This document shows positions 5,940 through 18,737 of a stretch of 25,425 bases of DNA, in pieces (the first letter of the stretch is position 1; every line of letters begins with the position of its first letter). Made by a program: the position numbers and the translations under genes. This stretch comes from a virus: positions 1 to 25,425 of IMG/VR virus record IMGVR_UViG_3300043256_000092; one strand, written 5' to 3'. Under the pieces are notes generated by a model, which ran no database searches, was not told where the DNA came from, and was given only the letters and a program-made list of their open reading frames with translations.

Positions 5940-6151
5940 CAACCACTACTAGTGGACTGGTACCATCAACCAGGTACATGCTTAAGCCTGAGGACCCGCA
6001 TGCGATCAAGAGGCACGATATAGTAACCATTGACAATCACCGCTTCTTTATAAAGGAGTTTGACGGGATCTATGCCAGTATTAATCCAATAGGTGAGCCG
6101 TCCAAGAAGTTTAAAAGCGGCAAAGTAGAGTTTGTGAAAGAATTAAATTAG
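5918..6151 (+). CDS. Hypothetical protein, 77 aa
   Basis: Not recognised. The C-terminal 55 residues look like a small beta barrel (HDIVTIDNHRFFIKEFDG, KSGKVEFVKEL), as in SH3-like or KOW-like modules. The first 20 residues are low complexity (TVTTTTSGLVPST) and overlap the preceding gene; an internal ATG at 5978 would give a 57-residue product without overlap and is an equally possible start. Confidence 0.6.
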   Translation: MDAHLTVTTTTSGLVPSTRYMLKPEDPHAIKRHDIVTIDNHRFFIKEFDGIYASINPIGEPSKKFKSGKVEFVKELN

Positions 6152-6181
6152 AACTAATAATCATTAATTAAATATAAACTA

Positions 6182-6838
6182 ATGAAGCTAGAAGCAGTCA
6201 AAGAACCAGAAATTGAGATAAAAGAAACTGTAGGCGAAGCAGAGGAGCAAGGTTATCTGCATGGAAGCAAGCGTAGAGAGTATAACGGCAACCCTTACAG
6301 TGCGGCAGATCAGTGGGATCTATGCCAAGCGTTTAGTAGGGGGGTAAAGAGGGCAGCCCTTGAATTTGACGAGAAGACAACTAAGGAGGTTGGAAAGATC
6401 AGGATTCCTGAAGGACCCAATTCAGAGAACTGTATAGAAGAGCCAATAATTACCCCAGACGAGCTAACAGAGCTTAAGGGCCAGATAATGCGGGACCGGG
6501 ATGTTATAGCTGACTTACGTAACTTCCGCGACAGGACGCTAGCTGAGCGCGATTCCCTGATGATTCTAGTGGAGAGAATCAACCATGGCTGTAAAAAGAA
6601 AGAGCTGGATTGGGATTTCTTTGAACAAAGAACTACTTTAGCTATTCAATCCCTAAGATTGAAGCACTCAGAATTGAAGTCTGATATTCAGGATTCGATA
6701 ATAAGAGAAGGAGAGATGTCATTCACGGCAGAGGGAAAGATAAAGGATTCCTGGTTGATTAAAGGGGATGGGCAAAATTATATGTATGTTGACGAATTGG
6801 AATATGTCAATGATACTGAAGTATTAAATATTAACTAA
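6182..6838 (+). CDS. Hypothetical protein with RMF-like N-terminal motif and coiled coil, 218 aa
   Basis: Residues about 22-58 (GYLHGSKRREYNGNPYSAAD, then QWDLCQAFSRGVKRA) resemble the pattern of ribosome modulation factor (RMF)-like domains: repeated Gly-spaced aromatics, NPY, and a Trp before a final Gly. RMF binds ribosomes and promotes hibernation in bacteria. Residues about 90-135 are strongly charged and helical (a coiled-coil candidate), and a C-terminal domain follows. The RMF resemblance is by eye only. A 30-base AT-rich gap precedes the ATG, and no promoter is obvious there. Confidence 0.6.
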   Translation: MKLEAVKEPEIEIKETVGEAEEQGYLHGSKRREYNGNPYSAADQWDLCQAFSRGVKRAALEFDEKTTKEVGKIRIPEGPNSENCIEEPIITPDELTELKGQIMRDRDVIADLRNFRDRTLAERDSLMILVERINHGCKKKELDWDFFEQRTTLAIQSLRLKHSELKSDIQDSIIREGEMSFTAEGKIKDSWLIKGDGQNYMYVDELEYVNDTEVLNIN

Positions 6839-8505: not shown

Positions 8506-8868
8506 ATGGCTAAGCTTGTAGTCAATCACTTCCCTGTAACAAGGTCCCGACCTGAACCTTTTGAACCAGGACTTGAAAAGATTGTGAGTAAGATCGCCGC
8601 AGAACAGGGGCTCTCCGTGACTGTGGTTCGGTCCATAATTAGGAAGACACTCAACTTTACTGCTAGTCAAATGGCTATAGAAAAGAGGCTTGTGTGGATT
8701 CCTGGATTTGGTAGCTTCTGCTTGTCTCAGCGTAGGAGAGTAGCCTGGGCTGATCGGAAACAAATCACTAGGGAGATGTTTAAAGATCAACTAGCAGATC
8801 AAGCAGAAGAGAAGACTGAGGCAGAAAAGTGTATAAAGATCTTTGGTGACCCGCTGGATCCGCTTTAA
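8506..8868 (+). CDS. IHF/HU-like DNA-bending protein, 120 aa
   Basis: Residues about 33-80 match the HU/IHF pattern: helix-turn-helix dimerisation part (EQGLSVTVVRSIIRKTLNFT) and the start of the saddle (KRLVWIPGFGSFCLSQRR; compare the conserved Gly-x-Gly-x-Phe of the family). It bends or wraps DNA. The arm after the saddle is shorter than in bacterial HU, and a charged C-terminal tail replaces it. IHF-like genes of this sort are known near the structural genes of crAss-like phages, which supports the taxonomic guess. Its 3' end is followed by a promoter-like box and a terminator. Confidence 0.75.
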   Translation: MAKLVVNHFPVTRSRPEPFEPGLEKIVSKIAAEQGLSVTVVRSIIRKTLNFTASQMAIEKRLVWIPGFGSFCLSQRRRVAWADRKQITREMFKDQLADQAEEKTEAEKCIKIFGDPLDPL

Positions 8869-8874
8869 ATTCAG

Positions 8875-8882
8875 TATATTTG
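8875..8882 (+). promoter_or_regulatory. TAnnTTTG box upstream of a short transcript unit
   Basis: GTATATTTG (the TAnnTTTG part at 8875-8882) matches the Bacteroidota -7 box and recurs at 11294-11301 and 13902-13909. No TTG lies at the usual -33 distance. Seven to ten bases on begins a short unit (with a 16-codon open frame, ATG 8894 to TGA 8944) that ends in the terminator at 8934-8965. Confidence 0.45.
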
Positions 8883-8933
8883 ATTACCCGTAGATGGGTG
8901 CTGCAAGAAGTAGCTCTAATGTTAAATTTGTGC

Positions 8934-8965
8934 AAGCCCTCTGATTATTCAGGGGGTTTTGTAAT
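8934..8965 (+). terminator. Intrinsic terminator after the early plus-strand operon
   Basis: An 11-bp stem with some G-T pairs (AAGCCCTCTGA at 8934-8944 with TCAGGGGGTTT at 8949-8959), loop TTAT, then a T-rich tail. It ends transcripts from the early operon (last gene 8506-8868) and any short transcript started at 8882. The TGA of the 16-codon frame lies inside its stem. Confidence 0.75.
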
Positions 8966-9024
8966 TTACCCTTGTATGTTAAATATATAATGCTTTACTT
9001 TGTAGTCAGAGAAAATAACTATTA

Positions 9025-9128
9025 AGCCAGCTAATTCTCGAATGACATTATAACGTAGAAGGGATACCCCTGATACCGTGAAAGAATTTCCCGATGTGCT
9101 GGCTCTAGTTTGCATCGGGATTCTTTTT
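9025..9128 (+). ncRNA. Structured RNA candidate with possible pseudoknot, ending in a terminator
   Basis: A terminator stem TCCCGATG (9089-9096) / CATCGGGA (9113-9120) is followed by TTCTTTTT. Its loop contains GCTGGCT (9098-9104), exactly complementary to AGCCAGC at 9025-9031, so the 5' part of the transcript can pair with the terminator loop. No open reading frame of note. Either a small RNA or a leader with conditional termination ahead of the tRNA island. No known family recognised. Confidence 0.5.
9089..9128 (+). terminator. Intrinsic terminator, 8-bp stem with T run
   Basis: TCCCGATG / CATCGGGA with a 16-base loop, followed by TTCTTTTT. Strong by eye. It separates the unit from 8990 onward from the next structured stretch. 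Confidence 0.75.
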
Positions 9129-9149
9129 GTCCGATACTTTCTCATTGTT

Positions 9150-9330
9150 CTTTAAATATTGATAACCTGCTCTTTGATTCAATATATTAATAGATGCTCT
9201 TAAAAAGCAGTATTGAGATAAGTTTTACAGCAGTTGATAGGAGAGGTACACGCGAGGGTGGAAGGAGGCTGAAAGTTATGCCGACCCTTTGTACTTTAAT
9301 CCTTCTGTAAGGGATTAACAGGTTATCATA
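9150..9330 (+). ncRNA. Structured non-coding stretch upstream of the first tRNA-like gene
   Basis: No open frame. Three foldable units follow one another: TCAATA (9179-9184) / TATTGA (9211-9216) with an inner TGCT/AGCA; a nested stem GTAC/GTAC, GGGT/ACCC, GGC/GCC (9246-9294); and TAATCC/GGATTA (9297-9317). The middle unit is a three-step nested stem, more than chance folding would usually give. It may be the 5' leader of the tRNA precursor or an unrecognised RNA. Boundaries are uncertain. Confidence 0.35.
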
Positions 9331-9331
9331 T

Positions 9332-9410
9332 GGGGAGTTAGCTCAGTTGGTAGAGCAGCGGTGCGCACGGTTAAGACAGCAGGTCGGAGGTTCGAGTCCT
9401 TCACTCTCCA
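9332..9410 (+). tRNA. tRNA-like gene with expanded anticodon loop, identity not assignable
   Basis: Acceptor stem GGGGAGT/ACTCTCC, D arm GCTC/GAGC, variable loop AGGTC and T arm (GGAGG, loop TTCGAGT, CCTTC) are all normal. Between D arm and variable loop there are about 6 extra bases: stem GCGGT / ACAGC (one mismatch) encloses a 13-base loop GCGCACGGTTAAG instead of 7. A GTT or TTA anticodon can be read in it but not fixed. It may be a degenerate tRNA or one needing processing. Confidence 0.55.
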
Positions 9411-9657
9411 CTAATATCGGTTCTTACAACCCAACCGAAGTACCGCAAGAAGGTAGAAACAAAAGGGTTATCTAAGATTGAAGAAGGGAAAGGTGGGAAC
9501 CTTCCTGGGAATACCTCGACAACTGAGGACGGTTAAGCTGAAAATTCGACGACCTATTCCACTAATCGTACAGAGGATTAGGAGTAAATGATTAGATTAT
9601 AGTAGAACTAAACAGGTTTTAAACTGCTGAATAAGGGATTTCAGAGAAAGAGTTGGT
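9411..9657 (+). ncRNA. Possible group I intron core preceding an HNH endonuclease gene
   Basis: A gene-free 247-base stretch dense in short stems: TACC/GGTA, GGA-AAGG/CCTTCC (9487-9505), CCTC/GAGG (9514-9528), CTAATC/GATTAG (9562-9581). TTCGACGACCTATTCC (9545-9560) resembles the conserved R element of group I introns (core ACGACTA); the CTAATC stem is where P8 would lie; and ATAGT (9599-9603) can pair with ACC-TAT as a P7 with one bulged base. An HNH gene follows at once, the usual arrangement in phage group I introns. Splice sites and the interrupted exon are not identified, so this is tentative. Confidence 0.35.
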
Positions 9658-10137
9658 ATGGTAGTGATGACCCAGGATATTATGGATGCCGCAAAGAGTC
9701 GTCATGGCGGATGGTCTAATGCTCAATTCAGGGCGTTAGGCGTTTTTAAGTTTACTCCTAAAGGATGGAAAAAGCAATTGATCGGAAAGGAGTATACCGA
9801 GAACGCTATGCAGGAGTTTTTGGACCTAAGGAATAAACATTTAACCGGGAAGCCGTGTAGAAAGAAAAGAAGTAAGTTTAAAAACAAAAAGGTTAGATTT
9901 ATACCTGTAGCGGAGCCCTTAACATGGAAAGAGCAGTACAGGCACCCGAATTGGCAGCGGAGAAGGCTACAGATACTAGAGAGAGACAAATTTACTTGCA
10001 GGAGGTGTGGTGATAAAGACAGTATGCTGCATGTTCACCATCTTAAGTATCGAAAGAATAGTTATATATGGGAAGCGAAAGGAAAGGATATGATAACTCT
10101 TTGTGAGAAGTGCCATGATGAGGAGCATGGTAAATAG
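9658..10137 (+). CDS. HNH homing endonuclease, 159 aa
   Basis: C-terminal HNH nuclease: CRRC (C114, C117), HVHH (125-128), then LCEKCHDEEH with C149 and C152, the zinc-stabilised HNH form. The lead 'YRHPNWQRRRLQILERDKFT' is typical of this nuclease group. The N-terminal part (about 16-57: GGWSNAQFRALGV, KGWKKQLIGKEY) matches a small DNA-associated module that also occurs in standalone phage proteins. It probably nicks or cuts a target site to spread itself. It follows a possible group I intron core, so it may be intron-encoded; a free-standing endonuclease in the tRNA island is the alternative. An internal ATG at 9667 is another possible start. Confidence 0.85.
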   Translation: MVVMTQDIMDAAKSRHGGWSNAQFRALGVFKFTPKGWKKQLIGKEYTENAMQEFLDLRNKHLTGKPCRKKRSKFKNKKVRFIPVAEPLTWKEQYRHPNWQRRRLQILERDKFTCRRCGDKDSMLHVHHLKYRKNSYIWEAKGKDMITLCEKCHDEEHGK

Positions 10138-10212
10138 TGAGTATAAACTAATGACGGTTGTGGCGTATTACTAACCATTACTAATAATTATCAAATTAGT
10201 AATTAGAATATA
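10138..10212 (+). other. AT-rich spacer after the HNH gene
   Basis: No gene or stem with a T run is seen. It contains several copies of ACTAA/TTAGT-type words (ACTAATG, ACTAACC, ACTAATAA, TTAGTAATTAG) that could form weak hairpins before the next ATG at 10213. Confidence 0.3.
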
Positions 10213-10416
10213 ATGAACTACGATATTAAAAAACTCAAGAACGCTAGTTGGTGGGATAAAGGAAAGCCTACTAAGTGTATTCTTATTGGTTCTGGTTCAA
10301 ATATAAATGCGGAATGGTTCAGGGAGGTTAAAGGGAAATACGAACTTACAGAGGCGGGTATAGAAGCATATAAACGACTTTTAGCCAATGATCATTCGAT
10401 CAAAAAGAGAAATTAG
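10213..10416 (+). CDS. Hypothetical protein, 67 aa
   Basis: Not recognised. Single small domain, 'SWWDKGKPTKCILIGSGSNI' then 'YELTEAGIEAYKRLLANDHS', the latter like the final helix of a winged-helix unit (ELTEAGIEAYKRL is a common pattern there). Could be a small DNA-binding protein. It lies between two HNH genes in the tRNA island and may have arrived with one of them. Confidence 0.6.
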   Translation: MNYDIKKLKNASWWDKGKPTKCILIGSGSNINAEWFREVKGKYELTEAGIEAYKRLLANDHSIKKRN

Positions 10417-10461
10417 AAGAGTTAGATATGGATAATACGCTCAAAAAAGCAACCTTAGAGG

Positions 10462-10827
10462 ATGAGTAAAGCAAGCGATAGAAAGTTTATATTTGATAAG
10501 TACGGAGGTAAGTGCGCCTACTGTGGTTGTGAATTACAGAAGGGTTGGCATGTAGACCATATCGAAGCTCATTGGCACAACATGACACTAGAGGAATGTG
10601 AAAAGTATAAGTTAAAAAAGGGTGCTGATACTTTAGAAAACTCAAATCCTAGCTGCCCTAGATGCAATAGGTGGAAGGACACTTTTACCATTGAGAAATT
10701 CAGGGAAGAGCTTCAGAAACAATGTGAACGGCTCCAGAGGGATTCAAGTGCATATCGAATGGCAAAAGATTACGGACTTATCAAAGAAACAGGAGTTAAA
10801 GTAAAATTCTATTTTGAAACACTTTAA
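10462..10827 (+). CDS. HNH endonuclease, 121 aa
   Basis: Compact HNH nuclease: CAYC (C18, C21), WHVDHIEA (H30 and H33), then 'LENSNPSCPRCNRWK' with Asn residues and C65/C68 completing the zinc-bound HNH fold; a helical tail follows. This subgroup (HVDHI...N..P.C..CN..K) includes restriction-like and homing endonucleases of phages. No extra DNA-binding module apart from the charged C-terminal half, so it is probably a free-standing endonuclease. Not closely related to the neighbouring HNH at 9658-10137: spacing of the motifs and flanking sequence differ. Confidence 0.85.
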   Translation: MSKASDRKFIFDKYGGKCAYCGCELQKGWHVDHIEAHWHNMTLEECEKYKLKKGADTLENSNPSCPRCNRWKDTFTIEKFREELQKQCERLQRDSSAYRMAKDYGLIKETGVKVKFYFETL

Positions 10828-10831
10828 GAAG

Positions 10832-10981
10832 ATGCCAGAAACCGAATTATCAGGGATGTTTCATTATTATTGGGAAGACGGTAAGAGGCAATGCGATCTC
10901 TTGACAGATAGGCCCTGTCCAGTAGATCATCATTCAGGTAAAGACTGTACGAGTTGTGCAATTAATCCAGACAGGAGCTAG
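10832..10981 (+). CDS. Small Cys/His-rich protein, 49 aa
   Basis: Starts 5 bases after the HNH stop. It reads MPETELSGMFHYYWEDGKRQ and continues with QCDLLTDRPCPVDHHSGKDC and TSCAINPDRS. Four Cys and two His in about 25 residues suggest a zinc knuckle. The short distance and A-rich lead imply coupling to the HNH gene. Function unknown. Confidence 0.6.
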   Translation: MPETELSGMFHYYWEDGKRQCDLLTDRPCPVDHHSGKDCTSCAINPDRS

Positions 10982-10991
10982 GCAAAGAAGA

Positions 10992-11279
10992 ATGAAGGCT
11001 ATTCTATATGAAGAGTTAGAAAAACATTTTACGGAACCTAAAACAAAACACTGTCTTAGAGAGAATCCTAGAATATCCAGAAAGCTTAAAAAGAGAATAA
11101 AAGATTATTGGGGGATTTTTTATAAGGTTAAATCTCATAAACTAAAGGGAAAAGCTAATTCTATGCATTTACTTGGATACAGACAAAAAGTTAATCCGGA
11201 TTATTGTAGGTTTTTGACTAAACAAATTTGTAAGGGAGTAGATTATGATAAAATAAAAAGAGAGGCGTTTTTAAAATAA
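10992..11279 (+). CDS. Hypothetical basic protein, 95 aa
   Basis: Start set at the ATG at 10992, after the stop of the preceding small gene; an earlier in-frame ATG at 10956 would overlap it. Highly basic and Lys/Tyr-rich, for example KLKKRIKDYWGIFYKVKSHK, with predicted helices; likely nucleic-acid binding. No motif recognised. Its base composition is clearly more A-rich than the neighbouring HNH gene, so it may have a separate origin. Confidence 0.6.
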   Translation: MKAILYEELEKHFTEPKTKHCLRENPRISRKLKKRIKDYWGIFYKVKSHKLKGKANSMHLLGYRQKVNPDYCRFLTKQICKGVDYDKIKREAFLK

Positions 11280-11293
11280 TCGAAAAAGAGTAG

Positions 11294-11301
11294 TATATTT
11301 G
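11294..11301 (+). promoter_or_regulatory. TAnnTTTG box of the small RNA at 11305
   Basis: GTATATTTG (TATATTTG at 11294-11301) matches the Bacteroidota -7 box. No -33 TTG at standard distance. The structured RNA starts a few bases downstream, and it ends in a terminator, so the three parts form one unit. Confidence 0.55.
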
Positions 11302-11304
11302 CAT

Positions 11305-11425
11305 CGTGATTCAACAACTCTTACATAGTCGCTATTCGCTGCCGAACGCAAGTCCGGGGGATACGCCTATGTAAGATTCACGACATATATAGGAAAAGCC
11401 TCGGATAACCTCCGGGGCTTTTTTT
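11305..11425 (+). ncRNA. Small structured RNA with own promoter box and terminator
   Basis: About 120 bases. An outer stem CGTGA (11305-11309) / TCACG (11378-11382) and a 10-bp inner stem TCTTACATAG (11319-11328) / CTATGTAAGA (11367-11376) enclose a 38-base GC-rich loop. The intrinsic terminator at 11396-11425 follows. The 5' end implied by the -7 box falls at the outer stem. No open frame of note. It stands just before the main tRNA run. No Rfam family recognised by eye; a regulatory RNA or a processing-related RNA are options. Confidence 0.6.
11396..11425 (+). terminator. Intrinsic terminator of the small RNA
   Basis: 10-bp stem AAGCCTCGGA / TCCGGGGCTT (one G-T pair), loop TAACC, then seven T. 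Only 12 bases before the tRNA-Pro gene, so it separates the small RNA from the tRNA cluster. Confidence 0.85.
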
Positions 11426-11437
11426 GTGGAATAATAT

Positions 11438-11510
11438 CTGGGTGTGGCACAGTTGGTAGCGCGGGGCATTTGGGATGCTCAGGACGGGAGTTCAAGTCTC
11501 TCCACTCAGA
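11438..11510 (+). tRNA. tRNA-Pro(UGG)
   Basis: Acceptor CTGGGTG/CACTCAG with the C1-G72 pair typical of bacterial tRNA-Pro, anticodon stem GGGCA/TGCTC, loop TTTGGGA, T arm GGGAG/CTCTC, discriminator A. No encoded CCA. Confidence 0.9.
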
Positions 11511-11515
11511 CAAAC

Positions 11516-11604
11516 GGAAGGTGAAGCAGTGGCAATGGAGCTGCGGCTAGTCTTGAAAACTAGAAGGCATTAAGTTGTCTGGGGGTCGGGTCCTCCGCTT
11601 TCCG
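11516..11604 (+). tRNA. tRNA-Ser(UGA)
   Basis: Class II with a long variable arm; acceptor GGAAGGT/GCTTTCC, anticodon stem CTAGT/ACTAG, loop CTTGAAA, discriminator G as expected for serine. Separated by 5 bases from the next tRNA. Confidence 0.9.
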
Positions 11605-11609
11605 CATAC

Positions 11610-11691
11610 GGAAGATAAACCTACCTGGGTAGGCTCTCTTTGCTAAAGAGGTGGATCTGAAAGGATTGGGGATCGTGGCCTCTGTTTTCCG
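11610..11691 (+). tRNA. tRNA-Ser(GCU)
   Basis: Acceptor GGAAGAT/GTTTTCC, anticodon stem TCTCT/AGAGG, loop TTGCTAA, long variable arm, discriminator G. Its acceptor stem resembles that of the preceding Ser tRNA, so the pair may have arisen by duplication. The T arm (GGGG, loop ATCGTGG, CCTC) is unusual but pairable. Confidence 0.85.
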
Positions 11692-11696
11692 CTAGA

Positions 11697-11768
11697 TGGG
11701 GTGCAGCGTAGGTTGTGCCGGAAGGGTTGTAACCCCTAACCGCCAAGGTTCGAATCCTGGTACCCCAC
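11697..11768 (+). tRNA. tRNA-Tyr(GUA)-like, atypical
   Basis: Acceptor TGGGGTG/TACCCCA, anticodon stem AAGGG/CCCTA (one mismatch) with loop TTGTAAC reading GUA, T arm CAAGG/CCTGG with loop TTCGAAT. Bacterial tRNA-Tyr normally has a long variable arm; this one has a short one, and its D arm is weakly paired. If the loop were shifted by one it would read UGU (Thr), but pairing is then poor. Amino acid identity is therefore moderately uncertain. Confidence 0.55.
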
Positions 11769-11772
11769 GAAT

Positions 11773-11847
11773 GCCGGTGTGGGCAAAATGGTAAAGTCGC
11801 CTGACTTAGGATCAGGAGTTCTGGGGGTTCGATTCCCTTCACCGGTA
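11773..11847 (+). tRNA. tRNA-Leu(UAG), short variable loop
   Basis: Acceptor GCCGGTG/CACCGGT, anticodon stem CCTGA/TCAGG, loop CTTAGGA reading UAG, T arm GGGGG/CCCTT, discriminator A. Unlike the neighbouring Leu(UAA), it lacks the long class II variable arm (about 6 bases here). Confidence 0.8.
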
Positions 11848-11851
11848 CTAT

Positions 11852-11936
11852 GCCGAGGTGGTGAAATAGGTAAACGCATCAGGTTTAAGCCCTGACGGTC
11901 ATTGCGATCTTGCGGGTTCGAGGCCCGCTCTCGGTA
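11852..11936 (+). tRNA. tRNA-Leu(UAA)
   Basis: Class II with long variable arm; acceptor GCCGAGG/TCTCGGT, anticodon stem TCAGG/CCTGA, loop TTTAAGC, discriminator A. No intron. Confidence 0.9.
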
Positions 11937-11941
11937 CAAAT

Positions 11942-12013
11942 GCCTCCGTAGTTCAACGGATAGAGCTCCTGGCTTCGGACCAGGGAATGCGCGTTCGAAT
12001 CGTGCCGGGGGTA
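11942..12013 (+). tRNA. tRNA-Arg(UCG)
   Basis: Acceptor GCCTCCG/CGGGGGT, anticodon stem CCTGG/CCAGG, loop CTTCGGA, T loop TTCGAAT, discriminator A. Confidence 0.9.
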
Positions 12014-12019
12014 CTATAT

Positions 12020-12093
12020 GGTGTCACTAGCTTATATGCGTAAAGTGCCAGACTGTGAATCTGGAGAACAGGGTTCGAGTCCCGGTGTCACCC
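12020..12093 (+). tRNA. tRNA-His(GUG)
   Basis: Anticodon stem CCAGA/TCTGG, loop CTGTGAA; acceptor GGTGTCA/TGTCACC with one T-T mismatch; discriminator C as in tRNA-His. The base before position 1 is T rather than the usual encoded G(-1), so the histidine identity G may have to come from another process, or the 5' end is one base different. Confidence 0.8.
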
Positions 12094-12125
12094 AAAATAA
12101 ATTAGGATATTAAATCCAAGGGTTG

Positions 12126-12133
12126 TACGTTTG
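12126..12133 (+). promoter_or_regulatory. TAnnTTTG box between tRNA-His and tRNA-Thr
   Basis: GTACGTTTG (TACGTTTG at 12126-12133) fits the Bacteroidota -7 box; -33 TTG not seen. The downstream unit is a 28-codon open frame and a terminator. Confidence 0.45.
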
Positions 12134-12152
12134 TACTGTTAATAAAAACAAA

Positions 12153-12239
12153 ATGACTTCAATAAGGAGAAATACGATAGCGAGAATGGCTGCCACGGTG
12201 ATTAAGTCACAAGGGGGCACCGGTGTATGTATAACCTAA
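12153..12239 (+). CDS. Possible 28-residue small protein in its own transcript unit
   Basis: ATG after an A-rich lead (AAAAACAAA) about 20 bases beyond the TAnnTTTG box, with a stop 21 bases before the terminator at 12261-12292. It reads MTSIRRNTIARMAATVIKSQ and ends GGTGVCIT. Basic and helical, with a glycine-rich end. The promoter-frame-terminator layout is compact and sits inside the tRNA cluster. The same RNA could instead be non-coding: CACGGTG and CACCGGTG stretches inside it can pair. Confidence 0.35.
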   Translation: MTSIRRNTIARMAATVIKSQGGTGVCIT

Positions 12240-12260
12240 CGAAGCAATTTACGATACTGG

Positions 12261-12292
12261 AACCCCAAGTGAGAAATTGCTTGGGGTTTTTT
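12261..12292 (+). terminator. Intrinsic terminator
   Basis: Perfect 9-bp stem AACCCCAAG / CTTGGGGTT with a 10-base loop and a run of six T. It ends the unit started at the TACGTTTG box, 4 bases before tRNA-Thr. Confidence 0.85.
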
Positions 12293-12295
12293 AAT

Positions 12296-12369
12296 GCCGC
12301 GTTAGCTCAGATGGTCAGAGCTGTTGATTTGTAATCAACCGGTCACAGGTTCGAATCCTGTATGCGGCT
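12296..12369 (+). tRNA. tRNA-Thr(UGU)
   Basis: Acceptor GCCGCGT/ATGCGGC, D arm GCTC/GAGC, anticodon stem GTTGA/TCAAC, loop TTTGTAA, T arm ACAGG/CCTGT, discriminator T. Confidence 0.9.
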
Positions 12370-12377
12370 CAATATAT

Positions 12378-12451
12378 AGCGGGATGGAGCAGTTGGTCAG
12401 CTCGGTAGGCTCATAACCTACAGGTCCACGGTTCGAATCCGTGTCCCGCTA
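12378..12451 (+). tRNA. tRNA-Met(CAU), initiator-like body
   Basis: Anticodon loop CTCATAA with stem GTAGG/CCTAC; acceptor AGCGGGA/TCCCGCT, discriminator A. The D arm GAGC/GCTC with A11-U24 and the lead TGGAGCAGTTGGT are those of bacterial initiator tRNA. It differs in having an A1-U72 pair in place of the C1xA72 mismatch, and AGG/CCU in place of the three G-C pairs of the anticodon stem. Confidence 0.85.
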
Positions 12452-12456
12452 CATAT

Positions 12457-12529
12457 TGGCGAATAGCTCAGCGGTGAGAGCACCGTCCTGATAAGGCGGG
12501 GGTCATTGGTTCAAATCCAATTTTGCCAA
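12457..12529 (+). tRNA. tRNA-Ile(GAU)
   Basis: Acceptor TGGCGAA/TTTGCCA, D arm GCTC/GAGC, anticodon stem CCGTC/GGCGG, loop CTGATAA, T arm ATTGG/CCAAT, discriminator A. Confidence 0.9.
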
Positions 12530-12534
12530 CAATA

Positions 12535-12610
12535 AGCGAGTAACGCATAAACGGTGGTGCGTCTGCCTTCCAAGCAGAAATAGAGTCGGTTCGATCCCGA
12601 CTATTCGCTC
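12535..12610 (+). tRNA. tRNA-Gly(UCC)
   Basis: Acceptor AGCGAGT/ATTCGCT, D arm CGCA...TGCG, anticodon stem TCTGC/GCAGA, loop CTTCCAA, T arm GTCGG/CCGAC, discriminator C (T is usual for glycine). Confidence 0.85.
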
Positions 12611-12612
12611 AG

Positions 12613-12686
12613 TGACCCTTAGCTCAATTGGTCAGAGCGCCCGGCTCATAACCGGAAGGTTAAAGGTTCAATTCCTTTAGGGTCAA
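12613..12686 (+). tRNA. tRNA-Met/Ile2(CAU), elongator-like
   Basis: Acceptor TGACCCT/AGGGTCA, D arm GCTC/GAGC, anticodon loop CTCATAA, T arm AAAGG/CCTTT, discriminator A. The elongator-type D arm sets it apart from the initiator-like tRNA at 12378. If the C34 is modified to lysidine it would read AUA (Ile); this cannot be settled from the sequence. Confidence 0.85.
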
Positions 12687-12693
12687 CTATGAT

Positions 12694-12779
12694 AATCATG
12701 TCTCCCTGAAGAATGTGAAATCCATCGGGGTGGTGAGCGGGCATAGTCCTGTGCAGATACTCCACAGGGAGGCATGATT
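12694..12779 (+). ncRNA. Stem-loop RNA element between tRNA genes
   Basis: A 15-bp stem with one G-T pair, AATCATGTCTCCCTG (12694-12708) and CAGGGAGGCATGATT (12765-12779), encloses a 56-base loop (12709-12764). It is precisely placed between tRNA-Met (ends 12686) and tRNA-Ala (starts 12785), filling the gap as a tRNA gene would, but it has no tRNA arms. No open frame. A processed small RNA from the tRNA precursor is a fair reading. Confidence 0.6.
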
Positions 12780-12784
12780 AAAAT

Positions 12785-12860
12785 GGGTTTGTAGCTCCAA
12801 TTTGGCTAGAGCGTCTGTTTTGCACTCAGAAGGTTATCGGTTCAAGTCCGTTCAGATCCA
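12785..12860 (+). tRNA. tRNA-Ala(UGC)
   Basis: Acceptor GGGTTTG/CAGATCC, anticodon stem TCTGT/TCAGA (one mismatch), loop TTTGCAC, T arm ATCGG/CCGTT, discriminator A. The G3-U70 pair, the alanine identity element, is present in the acceptor stem. Confidence 0.85.
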
Positions 12861-12866
12861 CTACAT

Positions 12867-12943
12867 GCTTGCTTAGCTCAGCGGTTAAGAGCGTCTCGTT
12901 TACACCGAGAGGGTCAGGAGTTCGAATCTCTTAGCAAGTACCA
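12867..12943 (+). tRNA. tRNA-Val(UAC), CCA end encoded
   Basis: Acceptor GCTTGCT/AGCAAGT, D arm GCTC/GAGC, anticodon stem TCTCG/CGAGA, loop TTTACAC, T arm AGGAG/CTCTT, discriminator A followed by an encoded CCA (12941-12943). Confidence 0.9.
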
Positions 12944-12954
12944 ATAATAATTAG

Positions 12955-12962
12955 TATCTTTG
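12955..12962 (+). promoter_or_regulatory. TAnnTTTG box before the HTH/LAGLIDADG-like gene
   Basis: GTATCTTTG (TATCTTTG at 12955-12962) matches the Bacteroidota -7 box; no -33 TTG at the usual distance. It is 29 bases ahead of the ATG at 12992, so the mobile-type gene appears to bring its own promoter. Confidence 0.5.
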
Positions 12963-12991
12963 TCTTATATATTAATAAGACAGAGGTTCGG

Positions 12992-13669
12992 ATGAAGAAA
13001 AAAGAAAATGAGCAAAAAGAGGCTAGGCGGCTTCGTGGATTGGGATTAAGCCTGTTTAAGATCGCTAAAAAACTTAGAGTGTCAAAAAGCTCGGTTAGTT
13101 TATGGGTTCGGGATGTAAAGTTAACAGAAGATCATAAGCGAACTTTAGAAAATAACCGCTTAAATGCAGGTATAGATAAGCTCCTAGTGCAGTCTAGAAT
13201 CAATAAAACAAAAGCACAAGAGAGAAGATTAGGCTACAGAAAGAATGGTTTTGAGAGGGCAAAAACAGATGAGCCTTTTAGGTTGATATGCGCTCTTTAT
13301 TGGGGTGAGGGCTCCAAGGGTAGGAATATATTTTCTTTCGCCAACTCAGACTTGCCGATGATTAAGGTGGTGGGGGAGTGGGTTGATGAGAATGTAAAAA
13401 ATAAATCATGCAAAATACGGGTATGTTATTATGGAGAAAACGGGTTGTCGGAATACCAAATAAGGAGACGATGGATCAAAGAGTTTCCGAAGCTTAAAAA
13501 CAAAAAATGGACACTGTTATGCTCAAAGAATAAAATAAGAAGGGATACTCAGAGAAAAGGAATTGGAAAGCTCCCGTATGGAACAGGAACTCTATATGTG
13601 TGCTCAACCGAATTAGTACAAAACGTTTATGGAGGAATTGATTACATAAGAACAAAAACATTAGCATGA
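12992..13669 (+). CDS. HTH plus LAGLIDADG-like protein, 225 aa
   Basis: N-terminal resolvase-like HTH (about residues 10-42: 'ARRLRGLGLSLFKIAKKLRV' and 'SKSSVSLWVRD'), a basic linker, then a domain with 'ALYWGEGSKG' (101-110) and 'FSFANSDLPMIKVV' (114-127). These recall the LAGLIDADG helix (LAGL-x-x-G-D/E-G) and the following strand. I have seen the pattern HTH + LYWGEGSK..NSD in uncharacterised bacterial and phage proteins; endonuclease activity is not demonstrated, and only one motif copy is present, so any nuclease would act as a dimer. The gene interrupts the tRNA cluster between Val and Lys, has its own -7 box, and is A-rich, all signs of a late insertion. Confidence 0.7.
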   Translation: MKKKENEQKEARRLRGLGLSLFKIAKKLRVSKSSVSLWVRDVKLTEDHKRTLENNRLNAGIDKLLVQSRINKTKAQERRLGYRKNGFERAKTDEPFRLICALYWGEGSKGRNIFSFANSDLPMIKVVGEWVDENVKNKSCKIRVCYYGENGLSEYQIRRRWIKEFPKLKNKKWTLLCSKNKIRRDTQRKGIGKLPYGTGTLYVCSTELVQNVYGGIDYIRTKTLA

Positions 13670-13731
13670 GAAGTAAGAGGAAATATAAACAGGTGATCAG
13701 GCGTAGATAACGTCCTGGTATTCCTATATAT

Positions 13732-13804
13732 TCCTCTGAAGCTCATGTGGACGGGCTTCCCGCTTTTAACGGGAAAGTAGTGGGTTCGAGGCCCACCAGG
13801 GGAA
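13732..13804 (+). tRNA. tRNA-Lys(UUU)
   Basis: Acceptor TCCTCTG/CAGGGGA, D arm GCTC/GGGC, anticodon stem TCCCG/CGGGA, loop CTTTTAA, T arm GTGGG/CCCAC, discriminator A. Positions 8-9 are AA rather than the usual T8. Confidence 0.8.
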
Positions 13805-13807
13805 CAT

Positions 13808-13881
13808 GGTTCCGTAGCTCAACTGGATAGAGCATCTGCCTTCTAAGCAGAGGGTTGTGAGTTCGACTCTCACCGGAATCA
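13808..13881 (+). tRNA. tRNA-Arg(UCU)
   Basis: Acceptor GGTTCCG/CGGAATC, D arm GCTC/GAGC, anticodon stem TCTGC/GCAGA, loop CTTCTAA, T arm GTGAG/CTCAC, discriminator A. Confidence 0.9.
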
Positions 13882-13901
13882 CGTTATTAAAAAAAGAATT
13901 G

Positions 13902-13909
13902 TATATTTG
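13902..13909 (+). promoter_or_regulatory. TAnnTTTG box before tRNA-Glu
   Basis: GTATATTTG (TATATTTG at 13902-13909), the same 9-base string as at 8874-8882 and 11293-11301. It would drive tRNA-Glu and a 21-codon open frame (14034-14099) before the terminator at 14126-14155. Confidence 0.5.
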
Positions 13910-13950
13910 CAAGATGAAAGCAACGGTAGATATTGAAGCTGAGGAGACTT

Positions 13951-14023
13951 GTCCCTGTGGGCAAGTTGGTCAAGCCGTTACCCTTTCAAGGTAAAGTCGC
14001 CAGTTCGAATCTGGTCTGGGATA
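13951..14023 (+). tRNA. tRNA-Glu(UUC)
   Basis: Acceptor GTCCCTG/CTGGGAT (one T-T mismatch), anticodon stem TTACC/GGTAA, loop CTTTCAA, T arm GCCAG/CTGGT, discriminator A. A 26-codon open frame (ATG 13914 to TAA 13994) runs into it but is probably chance. Confidence 0.85.
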
Positions 14024-14125
14024 CTAAGAAATTATGAGAAGAGTACAGCAAAATTGGTTTAACTGTGATTTTGATTTTAATCAAGATACAGGGGGCTAAT
14101 GCGCTAACTTTAAAGAATAGTCGAG

Positions 14126-14155
14126 GCCCTTTGTTAATAGCGAAGGGCTTTTTTT
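14126..14155 (+). terminator. Intrinsic terminator between tRNA-Glu and tRNA-Asp
   Basis: Stem GCCCTTTG (14126-14133) / CGAAGGGC (14141-14148) with a 7-base loop, followed by seven T. Ends the unit started at 13909, 4 bases before tRNA-Asp. Confidence 0.85.
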
Positions 14156-14159
14156 ATAT

Positions 14160-14233
14160 GGTGCCGCATCATGTTGGTGTATGTTGCCTCCCTGTCACGG
14201 AGGAGATCGTGGGTTCAAATCCCATCGGTACCG
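14160..14233 (+). tRNA. tRNA-Asp(GUC)
   Basis: Acceptor GGTGCCG/CGGTACC, anticodon stem CCTCC/GGAGG, loop CTGTCAC, T arm GTGGG/CCCAT, discriminator G as expected for Asp. The D arm is weak. Confidence 0.85.
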
Positions 14234-14238
14234 CACAA

Positions 14239-14312
14239 GGCCAGATGTCTGAGATGGTTATAGGTGGGGGTCTGCAAAACCCTTTACGCAGGTTCGAACC
14301 CTGTTCTGGTCT
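14239..14312 (+). tRNA. tRNA-Cys(GCA)
   Basis: Acceptor GGCCAGA/TCTGGTC, anticodon stem GGGGT/ACCCT, loop CTGCAAA, T arm GCAGG/CCTGT, discriminator T, the cysteine identity base. Confidence 0.9.
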
Positions 14313-14318
14313 CAATAA

Positions 14319-14392
14319 GGTACGGTAACTCAGTTGCGTAGAGTGGTAGATTGAAGATCTGCTGGCCGCTGGTTCGAGTCCAGCCCGTACCG
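14319..14392 (+). tRNA. tRNA-Phe(GAA)
   Basis: Acceptor GGTACGG/CCGTACC, D arm ACTC/GAGT, anticodon stem GTAGA/TCTGC, loop TTGAAGA, T arm GCTGG/CCAGC. Discriminator G, where A is usual for phenylalanine. Confidence 0.85.
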
Positions 14393-14398
14393 CTATAC

Positions 14399-14468
14399 GC
14401 AGGAACGTATTGGTGTACTAAGCGGATTCCAAACTCGTGACTTGTGGGTTCAACTCCTGCTTCCTGTG
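14399..14468 (+). tRNA. tRNA-Trp(CCA)
   Basis: Acceptor GCAGGAA/TTCCTGT, anticodon stem GCGGA/CTCGT (one mismatch), loop TTCCAAA, T arm GTGGG/CCTGC, discriminator G as in bacterial tRNA-Trp. At 70 bases it is short, the D arm being reduced. Confidence 0.75.
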
Positions 14469-14473
14469 CAAAA

Positions 14474-14547
14474 TGCGAGTTAGCTGAGTTGGTTACAGCA
14501 GCTGCCTGTTAAGCAGAAGATCCTGAGTTCGAGTCTCAGACTCGCAG
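14474..14547 (+). tRNA. tRNA-Asn(GUU)
   Basis: Acceptor TGCGAGT/ACTCGCA, D arm GCTG/CAGC, anticodon stem CTGC/GCAG around loop CTGTTAA, T arm CTGAG/CTCAG, discriminator G as expected for Asn. Confidence 0.9.
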
Positions 14548-14553
14548 CAATAT

Positions 14554-14628
14554 TGCCCTTTCGTCTAACTGGCAGGACACCTCCCTTTGAAGGAGTGAAT
14601 CGTGGTTCGAATCCACGTTGGGCAACCA
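14554..14628 (+). tRNA. tRNA-Gln(UUG), CCA end encoded
   Basis: Acceptor TGCCCTT/TTGGGCA with the U1-A72 pair of tRNA-Gln and two T-T mismatches at the base of the stem; anticodon stem CTCC/GGAG, loop CTTTGAA; T arm CGTGG/CCACG; discriminator A followed by encoded CCA (14626-14628). Last gene of the tRNA island. Confidence 0.85.
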
Positions 14629-14705
14629 CTTAATCCGTATTTTCTTAGGTTTACCCCCGCACTATTCCTAATTTTACAGTAACACAATTTCTATATTGTC
14701 GTTAA
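14629..14705 (+). promoter_or_regulatory. Leader of the late structural operon, weak promoter candidate
   Basis: AT-rich spacer between tRNA-Gln and the first gene of the late module. CTATATTG (14691-14698) is close to TAnnTTTG but one base short, with no -33 TTG. It may be a late promoter read with a phage factor; no stem followed by T is present, so read-through from the tRNA unit is also possible. Confidence 0.35.
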
Positions 14706-14909
14706 ATGGGTAAGTTACAAGACATCTACGACGGCTGGAAGAACGTAATTTGGAAGAATCCCAAGGTAGAGCAGATGGCGAAATCAAGGGCTGTCATGTG
14801 TGCTCCATGCCCTTCTAACTGGTATAATATCTGTAAGGAGTGTAATTGCCCGATACCAATGAAAACTAGGGCCCCTAAAGTGATTTGTGAATTAAAGAGA
14901 TGGAAGTAG
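14706..14909 (+). CDS. Small zinc-ribbon protein, 67 aa
   Basis: Contains CAPC (about residues 32-35), CKECNC (about 43-48) and a final ICELKRW, giving the pattern C..C...C..C.C..P.KTRAP...C...KW. This pattern recurs in small proteins beside terminase genes of Bacteroidota phages. It would bind one or two zinc ions. Probably an adaptor in head assembly or packaging; precise role unknown. First gene of the late operon. Confidence 0.75.
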   Translation: MGKLQDIYDGWKNVIWKNPKVEQMAKSRAVMCAPCPSNWYNICKECNCPIPMKTRAPKVICELKRWK

Positions 14910-15632: not shown

Positions 15633-18600
15633 ATGCTAGAAAGGGTACAAGAATTTAGACCGGCTGCTGCTCATTTCGAGGAGCATGGAGTCTATACTAA
15701 ACATCCCTTTAATGATTTACCCTCCAGTGGGTATATGAAGTTTTGGGAAGAGGAGAAAAGAAGATCTATAGAAGGCTATGATTTGGGATTTGATAAGATA
15801 TCTGGATACTACTACTTTTATTTGAATTATTGCCAGATCCCTGTTGTAGAAGCAATAGAGGATATAAAGGAAGATGAAAGGGTCCAGGGCGATAGGCCTA
15901 TGTTGTTCCCTAAAGTATGGGACGGGGATTATAAGTATTTTAATTACCTAGAAGATGCTGAAAAAAATGGGAAGCATGGAGTGGTTCTTAAGGCGCGTGG
16001 GCGCGGATTTTCGTACAAAGGAGCCAATATGCTGTGTCGTAATTATTTTCTTATTCGAGGATCCAAGTCTTATGCTATGGCATTTGAGAAAGAGCACCTA
16101 ACCTCAGATGGATTATTGACAAAGGCGTGGGATAATATAGATTTTATAAACGAACATACCGCCTGGACAAAAAGAAGCTCTACTAACAAGGAGATGCGCA
16201 GAAAGGCTAGTTTTACAGAGCTAGAAGATGGCCAAAGTATAGAGAAGGGCTATAAGTCTGAAATTATAGGAGTCTCCCTAAAAGATAACCCAAATAGATC
16301 GAGAGGAAAACGTGGGAAACTGATTCTGTTCGAGGAGGCTGGTCTTTTCCCGAAACTATTAACGGCCTGGGGAATTACTAGAAGTTCGATGGAGCAGGGT
16401 CCAATTACGTTCGGATTACAAGTTGCATTCGGATGTGTTTGTGCTGGAACAAAGGTCTGGAATAATAGAGGAGACTTAGTGAAAATAGAAGACCTTAAGC
16501 CGCGGCAGGGAATATTGGGGTATAATAAAGAAGAAGGCAGGATATCAAAAGAGGAAGTAACTCACTGGAACCCGCCAGCTAAAAAGCTTTGCTATCGAAT
16601 AACCACCCATACCGGAAGAGTGCTGGAGTGCAGTGAAGATCATCCAATATTATGGAGTAAACTCTGGCATGGTTCTCAGCCTAGAAAACCAAAAGGTAAT
16701 ATTCGTAGACCATTCATAAAAAAAACAGAGTTTGTTGAGGCTAAGAATATTAAGGCTAGTGATCAAATAGCAGTGATTGATGTTGTGCCCATATCCAGGC
16801 GTAAGGAATTACCTGATGCGAGGCTTTTGGGATGGTTAATTGGAGATGGTAGCTATGGGATTAATAAGACCCCCATCCTTTCTAATTGTGAAGGCGAGAT
16901 AAACACTGCTATTGATTCCAATTACGACACCGTTATTGAGAAGCAGTACATAACAAAAACAGGCAAGATTTACAGAGAGACACGAATTAGAGGAATCTGC
17001 CCTAAATTAAGAGCGGTAGGAATATATGGTCAAACTAAACTATCAAAAACTCTTCCTAGGAATATCCATTCTTACTCAAAAAAAAGTATTTGTGAATTAC
17101 TGGGTGGTCTTTTCGACACGGATGGATATGTTGAAAAGAAAAGAGGTAGGATAAGCATAACCTCTATGTCCTTTACCTTATTAGATGAAATAAGATTTTT
17201 ACTTCAGAGAATAGGTGTTCATGGAGCTATTCAGAGGATAAAAAAGAGTGAAAAAAATCCTAAAGACAAAAACGACCATTTTAGATTTGAAATTGCTGAC
17301 AAAAGAAGCGTTTTAGCATTCGTGAAGAATATTAAATTATTTCCAGCAGAAAAACAAAGAAGACTAAATACATTTAAGGAGATGTATAGAGATAAGAAAG
17401 AGGGGATATCTGCTAATGTGCATGGGCTGAGATTAGAGAGAGTAATTAGTGTTGAGGAGATTGGAATGAGGGATATTTATAATTTAACAGCCGGTACGAC
17501 AAGCACATATATTGCCAATGGAATTATTACCCATAATACAGGCGGAACTGAAGGAAGCAACTTTGATGGACTAGAAGAACTGTTCTATTACCCCAAAGCC
17601 TATAATATCCACCATACTCCTAACATCTGGGATGACGGGAAAGGAGATACGGAGTGTGGATACTTCGGACCTGAATACCTAAATATGGAGGGCTACTATG
17701 ATGAGAATGGGAACTCTAATATCGAGGCTGCAATAGAGCGTGAAATGAAGGAGCGTAAGCTGATAGCTGATAATGCTAAGGATCGGAATGCAGTGGTTCG
17801 ATACGTGGCAGAAAAGCCATTCAGTCCTTCCGAGGCTGTCTTGCGAACAGAGGGAATGATCTTTGCCGTTGCTGAGCTAAAACAACACCTGGGGTATTTG
17901 GAATCGAACGAGAGGATTAGGAATGCAGATTTTATTGGAGACTTAGTTACGGATAATTTAGGCGATATTGTCTGGAAGGAGAATACGGACCTGGTACCAA
18001 TTATCGATTTCCCAATGAGAGCTGGGCAGGACGCTACTGGGTGTATAGTTATTTTCAACCATCCGTATCATGATGAGTCTGGCAGGCCACCAAGAGGAAT
18101 GTACGCGGCCAGCGCGGATCCATACGATCATGATAAGTCCAGTACCGGATCACTGGGATCTACTTTCGTCTATGATAGAGTGAATCATAAGATTGTTGCC
18201 GAGTATTCTGGCAGGCCAGAGACTTCTAAAATTTACTACGAGAATGTACGTAAACTACTCCTGTATTATAATTGCCAGATTCTTTATGAAAATGAAAGGA
18301 AGGGATTATTTGACTATTTCGACTCCCAGAACTGCACGTATTTATTGTTAGATCAACCTGTTGAGATCATCCAAGATGTTATTGATGATTCTAAGGTAAG
18401 TAGAAAAAAAGGAATACACATGACTACTGGGTTAAAGGAGTTTGGTGAAGAAATGGTGAAAACTTGGTTGATAGAAAAACGAGAAGATGATGAATTATTG
18501 TTAAATTTGCAGAAAATTAGGTCAATTCCGTTTTTGAAAGAATTGATCGCGTACACTGAAGATGGGAACTATGACAGGGTAATGTCATTTCTCGTTTTAA

Positions 18601-18737
18601 TGTATTACTTAGCACAGATAAGGAAACAGAGAGTGATCAAGCAAGAAAACGTAAGAACAGTACTGGACGATCCGTTTTTTAAGTCCGATCCGTTTGGAAA
18701 GAAAGAACAACGTCCACAACCAGACTGGTTCCAGTAA
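15633..18737 (+). CDS. terL: Large terminase subunit (TerL) interrupted by an intein, 1034 aa precursor
   Basis: Motor of DNA packaging: ATPase plus nuclease at the portal. The N-extein (1-267) holds a divergent Walker A (ARGRGFSYK, residues 121-129) and Walker B (LILFEEAG, 230-237). Residues 268-635 are an intein (see its own entry), leaving a 666-residue mature protein. The C-extein starts TGGTEGS, restoring FG-TGGTEGS around the coupling motif of the ATPase, then carries the RNase H-type nuclease: 'ASADPYDHD' with acidic residues, 'LYENERKG', and a late Asp in 'NYDRVMSFLVL'. It is followed without a gap by the portal gene. Without protein splicing the ATPase and nuclease would be separated, so activity depends on the intein. 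Confidence 0.95.
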   Translation: MLERVQEFRPAAAHFEEHGVYTKHPFNDLPSSGYMKFWEEEKRRSIEGYDLGFDKISGYYYFYLNYCQIPVVEAIEDIKEDERVQGDRPMLFPKVWDGDYKYFNYLEDAEKNGKHGVVLKARGRGFSYKGANMLCRNYFLIRGSKSYAMAFEKEHLTSDGLLTKAWDNIDFINEHTAWTKRSSTNKEMRRKASFTELEDGQSIEKGYKSEIIGVSLKDNPNRSRGKRGKLILFEEAGLFPKLLTAWGITRSSMEQGPITFGLQVAFGCVCAGTKVWNNRGDLVKIEDLKPRQGILGYNKEEGRISKEEVTHWNPPAKKLCYRITTHTGRVLECSEDHPILWSKLWHGSQPRKPKGNIRRPFIKKTEFVEAKNIKASDQIAVIDVVPISRRKELPDARLLGWLIGDGSYGINKTPILSNCEGEINTAIDSNYDTVIEKQYITKTGKIYRETRIRGICPKLRAVGIYGQTKLSKTLPRNIHSYSKKSICELLGGLFDTDGYVEKKRGRISITSMSFTLLDEIRFLLQRIGVHGAIQRIKKSEKNPKDKNDHFRFEIADKRSVLAFVKNIKLFPAEKQRRLNTFKEMYRDKKEGISANVHGLRLERVISVEEIGMRDIYNLTAGTTSTYIANGIITHNTGGTEGSNFDGLEELFYYPKAYNIHHTPNIWDDGKGDTECGYFGPEYLNMEGYYDENGNSNIEAAIEREMKERKLIADNAKDRNAVVRYVAEKPFSPSEAVLRTEGMIFAVAELKQHLGYLESNERIRNADFIGDLVTDNLGDIVWKENTDLVPIIDFPMRAGQDATGCIVIFNHPYHDESGRPPRGMYAASADPYDHDKSSTGSLGSTFVYDRVNHKIVAEYSGRPETSKIYYENVRKLLLYYNCQILYENERKGLFDYFDSQNCTYLLLDQPVEIIQDVIDDSKVSRKKGIHMTTGLKEFGEEMVKTWLIEKREDDELLLNLQKIRSIPFLKELIAYTEDGNYDRVMSFLVLMYYLAQIRKQRVIKQENVRTVLDDPFFKSDPFGKKEQRPQPDWFQ
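16434..17537 (+). mobile_element. LAGLIDADG intein inside TerL, 368 aa
   Basis: Starts at Cys268 (motif A: CVCAGTKV) and ends at THN (633-635); the next extein residue is Thr. Motif B is 'VLECSEDHPIL', motif F 'RDIYNLTAGTTSTYIANG', motif G 'IITHN'. The endonuclease part has two LAGLIDADG helices: LLGWLIGDGS (398-407) and LLGGLFDTDG (489-498), both with the catalytic acid, so it looks active. A full-length intein with intact splice residues (Cys1, penultimate His, Asn, Thr+1). It sits at a highly conserved site of the TerL ATPase, as expected of homing elements. Confidence 0.95.

Follow-up and report, generated by a model that had tools for sequence, protein, structure and literature searches.

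The 25,425-nt virus contig IMGVR_UViG_3300043256_000092, a fragment analysed here over its whole length (the window), carries a genuine island of transfer RNA (tRNA) genes at positions 9332–14628, all on a single strand. The island comprises 24 tRNAs assignable by anticodon and one tRNA-like gene (9332–9411) without a readable anticodon. Judged by anticodon, the set covers all 20 amino acids, with about one tRNA per codon box. This gene content, the one-per-box coverage, the isotype-specific discriminator base (N73) and the separate insertion of the island, which has promoter-like and terminator-like signals of its own, were established directly. We consider it rather probable that the island is a replacement tRNA set, which would let the phage go on translating despite depletion or cleavage of the host tRNAs.

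With default settings ARAGORN called 22 tRNAs in the island, while the Rfam tRNA model gave 21 matches above the gathering score and missed the long-armed Ser-UGA. Relaxing the ARAGORN threshold to 90% added exactly three genes, Ser-GCU (11614–11692), Tyr-GUA (11697–11768) and Trp-CCA (14399–14469), all on the + strand, located in gaps of the array, and each filling a missing codon box. At this threshold the dinucleotide-shuffled island gave a mean of 0.03 calls, no tRNA was called in 300 shuffles per gap, and the 19.9 kb outside the island gave one call, on the minus strand and without a proper anticodon. The 24 anticodons and the one unassigned gene of the original prediction, made from the sequence alone, were thus all reproduced by the default and relaxed searches.

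The tRNA ends were compared with a host sample of 87 tRNA genes from two Bacteroidota genomes (Algoriphagus and Bacteroides); the tuf loci of other Bacteroidota were the source of additional Tyr, Trp, Thr and Gly genes. Genes of this sample encode C74 but as a rule not CCA, and base 73 is constant within each isotype. The window tRNAs encode C74 throughout (Tyr only in the acceptor register that also gives A73), and CCA is unencoded in 23 of 25 genes, the exceptions being Val 12867 and Gln 14554. Of 23 testable genes, 21 have at N73 the base of their isotype in Bacteroidota, against a mean of 9.1 and a maximum of 19 in a permutation test with 200,000 reassignments. The matches include Thr U73 and Gln A73, both of which differ from E. 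coli; the two exceptions are Phe (G instead of A) and Tyr. Encoding of C74 without CCA and the N73 match together suggest that the host belongs to the Bacteroidota and that the island tRNAs are selected for charging. The tRNA bodies are mostly 62–80% identical to tRNAs of the host sample or of the phages T5, Ceto or phi4:1, so the set is divergent. Joining of a host tRNA cluster to a phage contig during assembly could account for the lack of the island in sampled relatives (see below). We regard such an artefact as very improbable: at mostly 62–80% identity to Bacteroidota tRNAs the genes are far from any sampled host set, the HNH endonuclease genes and the phage-type flanks are continuous, and other phages have similar islands.

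The set remains one-per-box whatever the codon frequency, from Glu (9.2% of codons) down to Cys (0.9%). Under classical wobble rules, 81% of the sense codons in the window can be decoded; if U34 reads four codons and elongator tRNA-Met is supplied, decoding would extend to all sense codons of the window genes. A simple model would involve gain of a block of about 5.8 kb between the HU-like gene and the terminase-portal-capsid operon, its transcription, charging of the tRNAs by host synthetases and reading of four codons by U34. One tRNA for nearly every codon box would then allow phage mRNAs to be decoded despite a lost host pool, whether host shut-off has depleted it or tRNA-targeting defences have cut it. 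In T5-like phages, single tRNAs of the tRNA-rich region defeat tRNA-cutting defences (PMC11555353, PMC13096335), and in mycobacteriophage tRNAs loop changes provide protection (PMC10264068). By analogy, the island may have a counter-defence role.

Alternatively, the tRNAs could top up isoacceptors that are scarce in the host relative to phage codon usage. U34 anticodons indeed dominate and A/U-ending codons are preferred by the phage in most family boxes; AUA represents 32% of Ile codons in the window, hence the usefulness of the Ile2-like tRNA described below; and the tRNAs of Xanthomonas phage XacN1 fit phage-favoured codons (PMC5852040). However, codon compensation predicts a biased subset, whereas each box is covered once here, including those of the rare Cys, Trp, His and CGN codons. 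A full, non-redundant set that is independent of codon frequency fits replacement better, and we consider compensation credible but unlikely. The one-per-box design thus argues for wholesale replacement over codon-by-codon compensation, an old open question.

Several observations weigh against replacement of the host set. Firstly, the two CAU genes do not seem to include an elongator. The gene at 12378 has A11:U24 and 77% identity to E. coli fMet, and by these features it is the initiator tRNA. The gene at 12613 is 80% identical to the CAU gene 9436 of Vibrio phage Ceto, and its anticodon arm (CCCGGCTCATAACCGGA) is two positions off that of T5 Ile2 and a near-match to the Ceto 9436 arm too. 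It carries C32, C4:G69 and C5:G68, as does Ile2 of E. coli; at position 32 both Bacteroidota elongator-type Met genes have U. T5 Ile2 is without C4:G69, so that this pair alone is not decisive for Ile2. Taken together, these features make Ile2 the most likely identity of gene 12613. With an initiator and an Ile2-like tRNA as the island's two CAU genes, elongator tRNA-Met would be missing by sequence features and the set could not fully replace that of the host. Secondly, the Tyr and Trp genes appear degenerate or highly derived: Tyr reached 18.4 bits for a cut-off of 29, and Trp, found only below the cut-off, has an A31-C39 mismatch and a poor D arm. Finally, 14 of the 23 anticodon loops also occur unchanged in sampled host tRNAs, so that most are not obviously protected from anticodon nucleases; the 9 of 23 loops absent from the sampled hosts are weak evidence, given the few host genes per anticodon.

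Accordingly, the completeness claimed in the original prediction holds for the 20 amino acids by anticodon, but elongator Met is left uncovered and Tyr and Trp each depend on one degenerate gene. Elongation without any host tRNA, with every sense codon readable, is not provided by such a set. Near independence from host tRNAs had also been proposed. The breadth of the anticodon set agrees with it, while the missing elongator Met, the CCA left unencoded in most genes and the lysidine that Ile2 would need from the host do not; moreover, the window open reading frames scanned included no recognisable aminoacyl-tRNA synthetase or CCA-adding enzyme. Tyr, named the weakest call in the original prediction, does score below the cut-off and looks degenerate, but it does not score as Thr.

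How the island arose was examined by comparison with relatives. In two of them (L029 and L032), the HU-like gene (PF00216) directly overlaps the homologue of the small gene at 14706–14909. This empty site identifies the island as an insertion in a conserved operon, and places the tRNA set as a block within it. None of the sampled relatives, many of which are fragments, has such an island; a lone tRNA-Gln occurs in one stretch, and one contig has one tRNA gene at another place. A search with the exact tRNA-Thr pattern found no sister contig bearing this island. The island, of about 5.8 kb, is best read as one insertion in this lineage, arrival at once and growth in place being both compatible with the sequence.

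The insertion seems to have brought its own signals. On the transcribed strand, the non-coding parts of the island carry six TAnnTTTG motifs where 1.0 would be expected (0 of 2000 shuffles); the opposite strand has none. The motif is not enriched window-wide, only on the non-coding + strand of the island. These sites are consensus matches and hence predicted promoters, and the small structured RNAs listed in Table 1 are likewise predictions; a homologue search for the latter gave nothing significant. Upstream of the tRNAs, at 8876–9132, two small structured RNAs with terminator-like ends were observed, and the stretch 14025–14160 is also structured (z -4.7). TAnnTTTG is the promoter type of the Bacteroidota host and would fit early or host-polymerase transcription at least as well as the late-infection timing initially suggested.

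Mostly selfish or mutational accumulation would be another route to the island: homing endonucleases and recombination would gather tRNA genes of weak benefit, some of them decaying. Two HNH genes are present, and the helix-turn-helix (HTH) protein gene at 12992–13669 has a relative at 6007–6675 of an unrelated, 259 kb tRNA-rich virus contig (L018), also beside tRNA genes. This HTH gene is probably a mobile or homing gene; the structure model of its product is confident in the HTH part only (mean predicted local distance difference test score, pLDDT, of 50). The degenerate look of Tyr, Trp and 9332 and the absence of the island from sampled relatives, which suggests recent gain, also agree with accumulation. 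Nevertheless, neither the lack of redundancy nor the strongly conserved isotype-specific N73 is expected for drifting genes, and we consider this origin improbable as the main explanation.

Among the unusual genes, Ser-GCU takes a proper class II cloverleaf fold, with an energy no better than that of its own shuffles. In the gene at 9332–9411 the acceptor, D and T arms are excellent (49.9 bits), and the body is 81% identical to Bacteroidota tRNA-Val. On inspection, no 6-nt deletion within its 13-nt anticodon loop yields a 7-nt loop with U33, and from its sequence we class it as a pseudo-tRNA or tRNA-like RNA. Its interpretation as an intron-bearing tRNA-Leu (ARAGORN -i) was rejected, as only a poor anticodon stem results. 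No group I or II intron and no GOLLD or ROOL RNA was matched around it in Rfam up to E = 10, and the fold of the 781-nt stretch there is barely more stable than that of its shuffles (z -1.3).

The Tyr gene is devoid of a variable arm, whereas almost all Bacteroidota tRNA-Tyr genes in tuf loci are 82–86 nt long. The loss stands out, as the variable arm is where PtuAB cleaves tRNA-Tyr. One may imagine that the armless Tyr is kept since PtuAB-type host nucleases (Septu, retron-Eco7) cut there, the island being a structurally cut-proof set and 9332, with its enlarged loop, an anticodon-nuclease decoy. We hold this extension to be quite doubtful, and the Tyr gene may simply be decaying. The armless tRNA-Tyr is nonetheless a testable novelty, and offers a simple way to test whether escape from particular tRNA-cutting defences has moulded phage tRNAs. 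In other viral tRNA islands, tRNA-Tyr genes of 72 nt that likewise have no long variable arm lie at L229 1758–1829 and L309 9122–9193. The short-armed tRNA-Leu(UAG) was tried as a second peculiarity of this phage and discarded: Leu(UAG) without the class II arm is widespread in viral tRNA islands, being found in at least 112 viral stretches (Leu(UAG) calls below 80 nt).

The genes outside the island assign the contig to a crAss-like (Crassvirales) phage. The capsid protein matched 140 phage records, the top ones crAss-like. The portal protein and the terminase large subunit (TerL) are homologous to crAss ones (phrog_6547 and phrog_6681), and gene order is conserved with respect to relatives. 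TerL contains an intein at 16434–17540 with a LAGLIDADG-like domain, similar to those reported for some crAss groups; crAss groups carrying multiple tRNAs, inteins and introns have been described (PMC7886860). A search for the portal protein in bacterial genomes, made to find the host, gave no match.

Table 1. Features located in the window (island, tRNA genes, other genes and predicted RNAs and signals)
Feature	Position	Strand	Evidence or remark
HU/IHF-like gene, left neighbour of island	8506–8868	+	PF00216 above cut-off
Whole inserted island	8869–14705	+	Between HU-like gene and small gene
TAnnTTTG promoter-like site	8875–8882	+	Followed by structured RNA (z -3.5) and predicted terminator 8934–8959
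Orphan structured RNA	9040–9132	+	z -4.6; terminator-like hairpin at end
tRNA-like gene, 13-nt anticodon loop	9332–9411	+	ARAGORN, Rfam
HNH endonuclease gene, putatively free-standing homing type	9658–10137	+	PF01844 E 2.8e-6, phrog_119 E 1.4e-14
HNH endonuclease gene	10462–10827	+	PF01844 E 7e-6, phrog_2118 E 8e-37
TAnnTTTG promoter-like site	11294–11301	+	In 21-nt block, 90% identical copy at 13891–13911
Orphan structured RNA, 128 nt, very stable	11303–11430	+	z -5.6; hairpin and T run at end
tRNA-Pro(UGG)	11438–11511	+	ARAGORN, Rfam
tRNA-Ser(UGA), long-armed	11516–11605	+	ARAGORN
tRNA-Ser(GCU), below default threshold	~11609–11692 (folded gene)	+	Relaxed ARAGORN, fold
tRNA-Tyr(GUA), below threshold, variable arm lost	11697–11769	+	Relaxed ARAGORN
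tRNA-Leu(UAG), 6-nt variable loop	11773–11848	+	ARAGORN
tRNA-Leu(UAA)	11852–11937	+	ARAGORN, Rfam
tRNA-Arg(UCG)	11942–12014	+	ARAGORN, Rfam
tRNA-His(GUG), C73	12020–12093	+	ARAGORN, Rfam
TAnnTTTG promoter-like site	12126–12133	+	Precedes orphan RNA reaching about 12290
tRNA-Thr(UGU), U73 like Bacteroidota	12296–12370	+	ARAGORN, Rfam
Initiator tRNA-fMet(CAU), by features	12378–12452	+	A11:U24, E. coli fMet identity
tRNA-Ile(GAU)	12457–12530	+	ARAGORN, Rfam
tRNA-Gly(UCC)	12536–12610	+	ARAGORN, Rfam
CAU tRNA, most likely Ile2 (AUA reader after lysidine)	12613–12687	+	Sequence features
Orphan hairpin RNA, 97 nt, between tRNAs	12688–12784	+	z -4.7; 16-bp closing stem
tRNA-Ala(UGC)	12785–12861	+	ARAGORN, Rfam
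tRNA-Val(UAC), CCA encoded	12867–12943	+	ARAGORN, Rfam
TAnnTTTG promoter-like site	12955–12962	+	
HTH protein gene	12992–13669	+	Profile and relative match; conserved ICALYWGEG segment
tRNA-Lys(UUU)	13732–13805	+	ARAGORN, Rfam
tRNA-Arg(UCU)	13808–13882	+	ARAGORN, Rfam
TAnnTTTG promoter-like site	13902–13909	+	Precedes tRNA-Glu
tRNA-Glu(UUC)	13951–14024	+	ARAGORN, Rfam
Terminator-like hairpin	14123–14151	+	
tRNA-Asp(GUC)	14160–14234	+	ARAGORN, Rfam
tRNA-Cys(GCA), U73	14239–14313	+	ARAGORN, Rfam
tRNA-Phe(GAA), G73 (Bacteroidota: A73)	14319–14393	+	ARAGORN, Rfam
tRNA-Trp(CCA), below threshold	14399–14469	+	Relaxed ARAGORN; A31-C39 mismatch, G73 as expected
tRNA-Asn(GUU)	14474–14548	+	ARAGORN, Rfam
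tRNA-Gln(UUG), CCA encoded	14554–14628	+	ARAGORN, Rfam
Small gene, right neighbour of island	14706–14909		
Terminase large subunit with intein	15633–18737	+	
Portal protein, crAss-type	18738–21131	+	phrog profile match
crAss-type major capsid protein	22848–24302	+	PF23898 E 6.9e-130

Among known tRNA-rich phages, T5 (AY543070, 28–37 kb) has the same architecture: a dense tRNA block of nearly all isotypes with free-standing HNH genes, stable RNAs of unknown function, tRNA-like RNAs and many promoters, the RNAs and promoters of the island being predicted. T5 differs as a gammaproteobacterial siphovirus with a tRNA region of about 9 kb rich in small ORFs, its own elongator Met, fMet and Ile2, and a Tyr gene of 88 nt; in the T5 stretches read, 19 amino acids are covered and Arg was not seen. 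By architecture the island qualifies as a T5-type tRNA-rich region, which would work like that of T5 and not descend from it. Cellulophaga phage phi4:1 (Lightbulbvirus Cba41, NC_021788) also has a Bacteroidota host and about 22 tRNAs, nearly one-per-box, beside the terL and portal genes, with initiator and Ile2-like CAU genes and a Leu(UAG) without long arm. In contrast, its tRNA island is oriented opposite to terL, Cys and Ser(UGA) are uncalled, Tyr is of normal length, and neither the capsid nor the portal relatives listed include this phage. The CAU tRNAs of phi4:1 (L036 8027–8100 and 8721–8794) are only an initiator and an Ile2-like one, so that elongator Met seems missing there too. Zeta crAss-like phages such as Lera also belong to the Crassvirales and have about 26 tRNAs and homing endonucleases (PMC12386605), but use suppressor tRNAs and recoded stops. 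In the window, ARAGORN called no CUA or UCA anticodon at either threshold and the genes used contain no in-frame stop, so the stop recoding of the Zeta, Delta and Beta crAss groups is not seen.

The one-per-box design covering all 20 amino acids is shared with Ceto (MG649966), which has 25 tRNAs; Ceto differs by three CAU genes (two in the island), an Arg ACG where the island has UCG, a normal-length Tyr, and CCA encoded in the CAU genes read. XacN1 likewise covers all 20 amino acids, with 26 canonical tRNAs per terminal repeat, but is a jumbo phage with redundant isoacceptors, suppressor tRNAs and tRNA maturation enzymes. At least 120 viral stretches were retrieved with the short-armed tRNA-Leu(UAG) pattern, and among the 120 matches listed five (L273, L242, L216, L295 and L197, each below 15 kb with 28–38 genes) hold full 20-amino-acid sets. 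The statement that few phages carry a full set was therefore too strong. An environmental crAss-like phage thus joins the viruses with near-complete, non-redundant tRNA sets: the kind is already known from T5, Ceto and others, and this phage adds another member.

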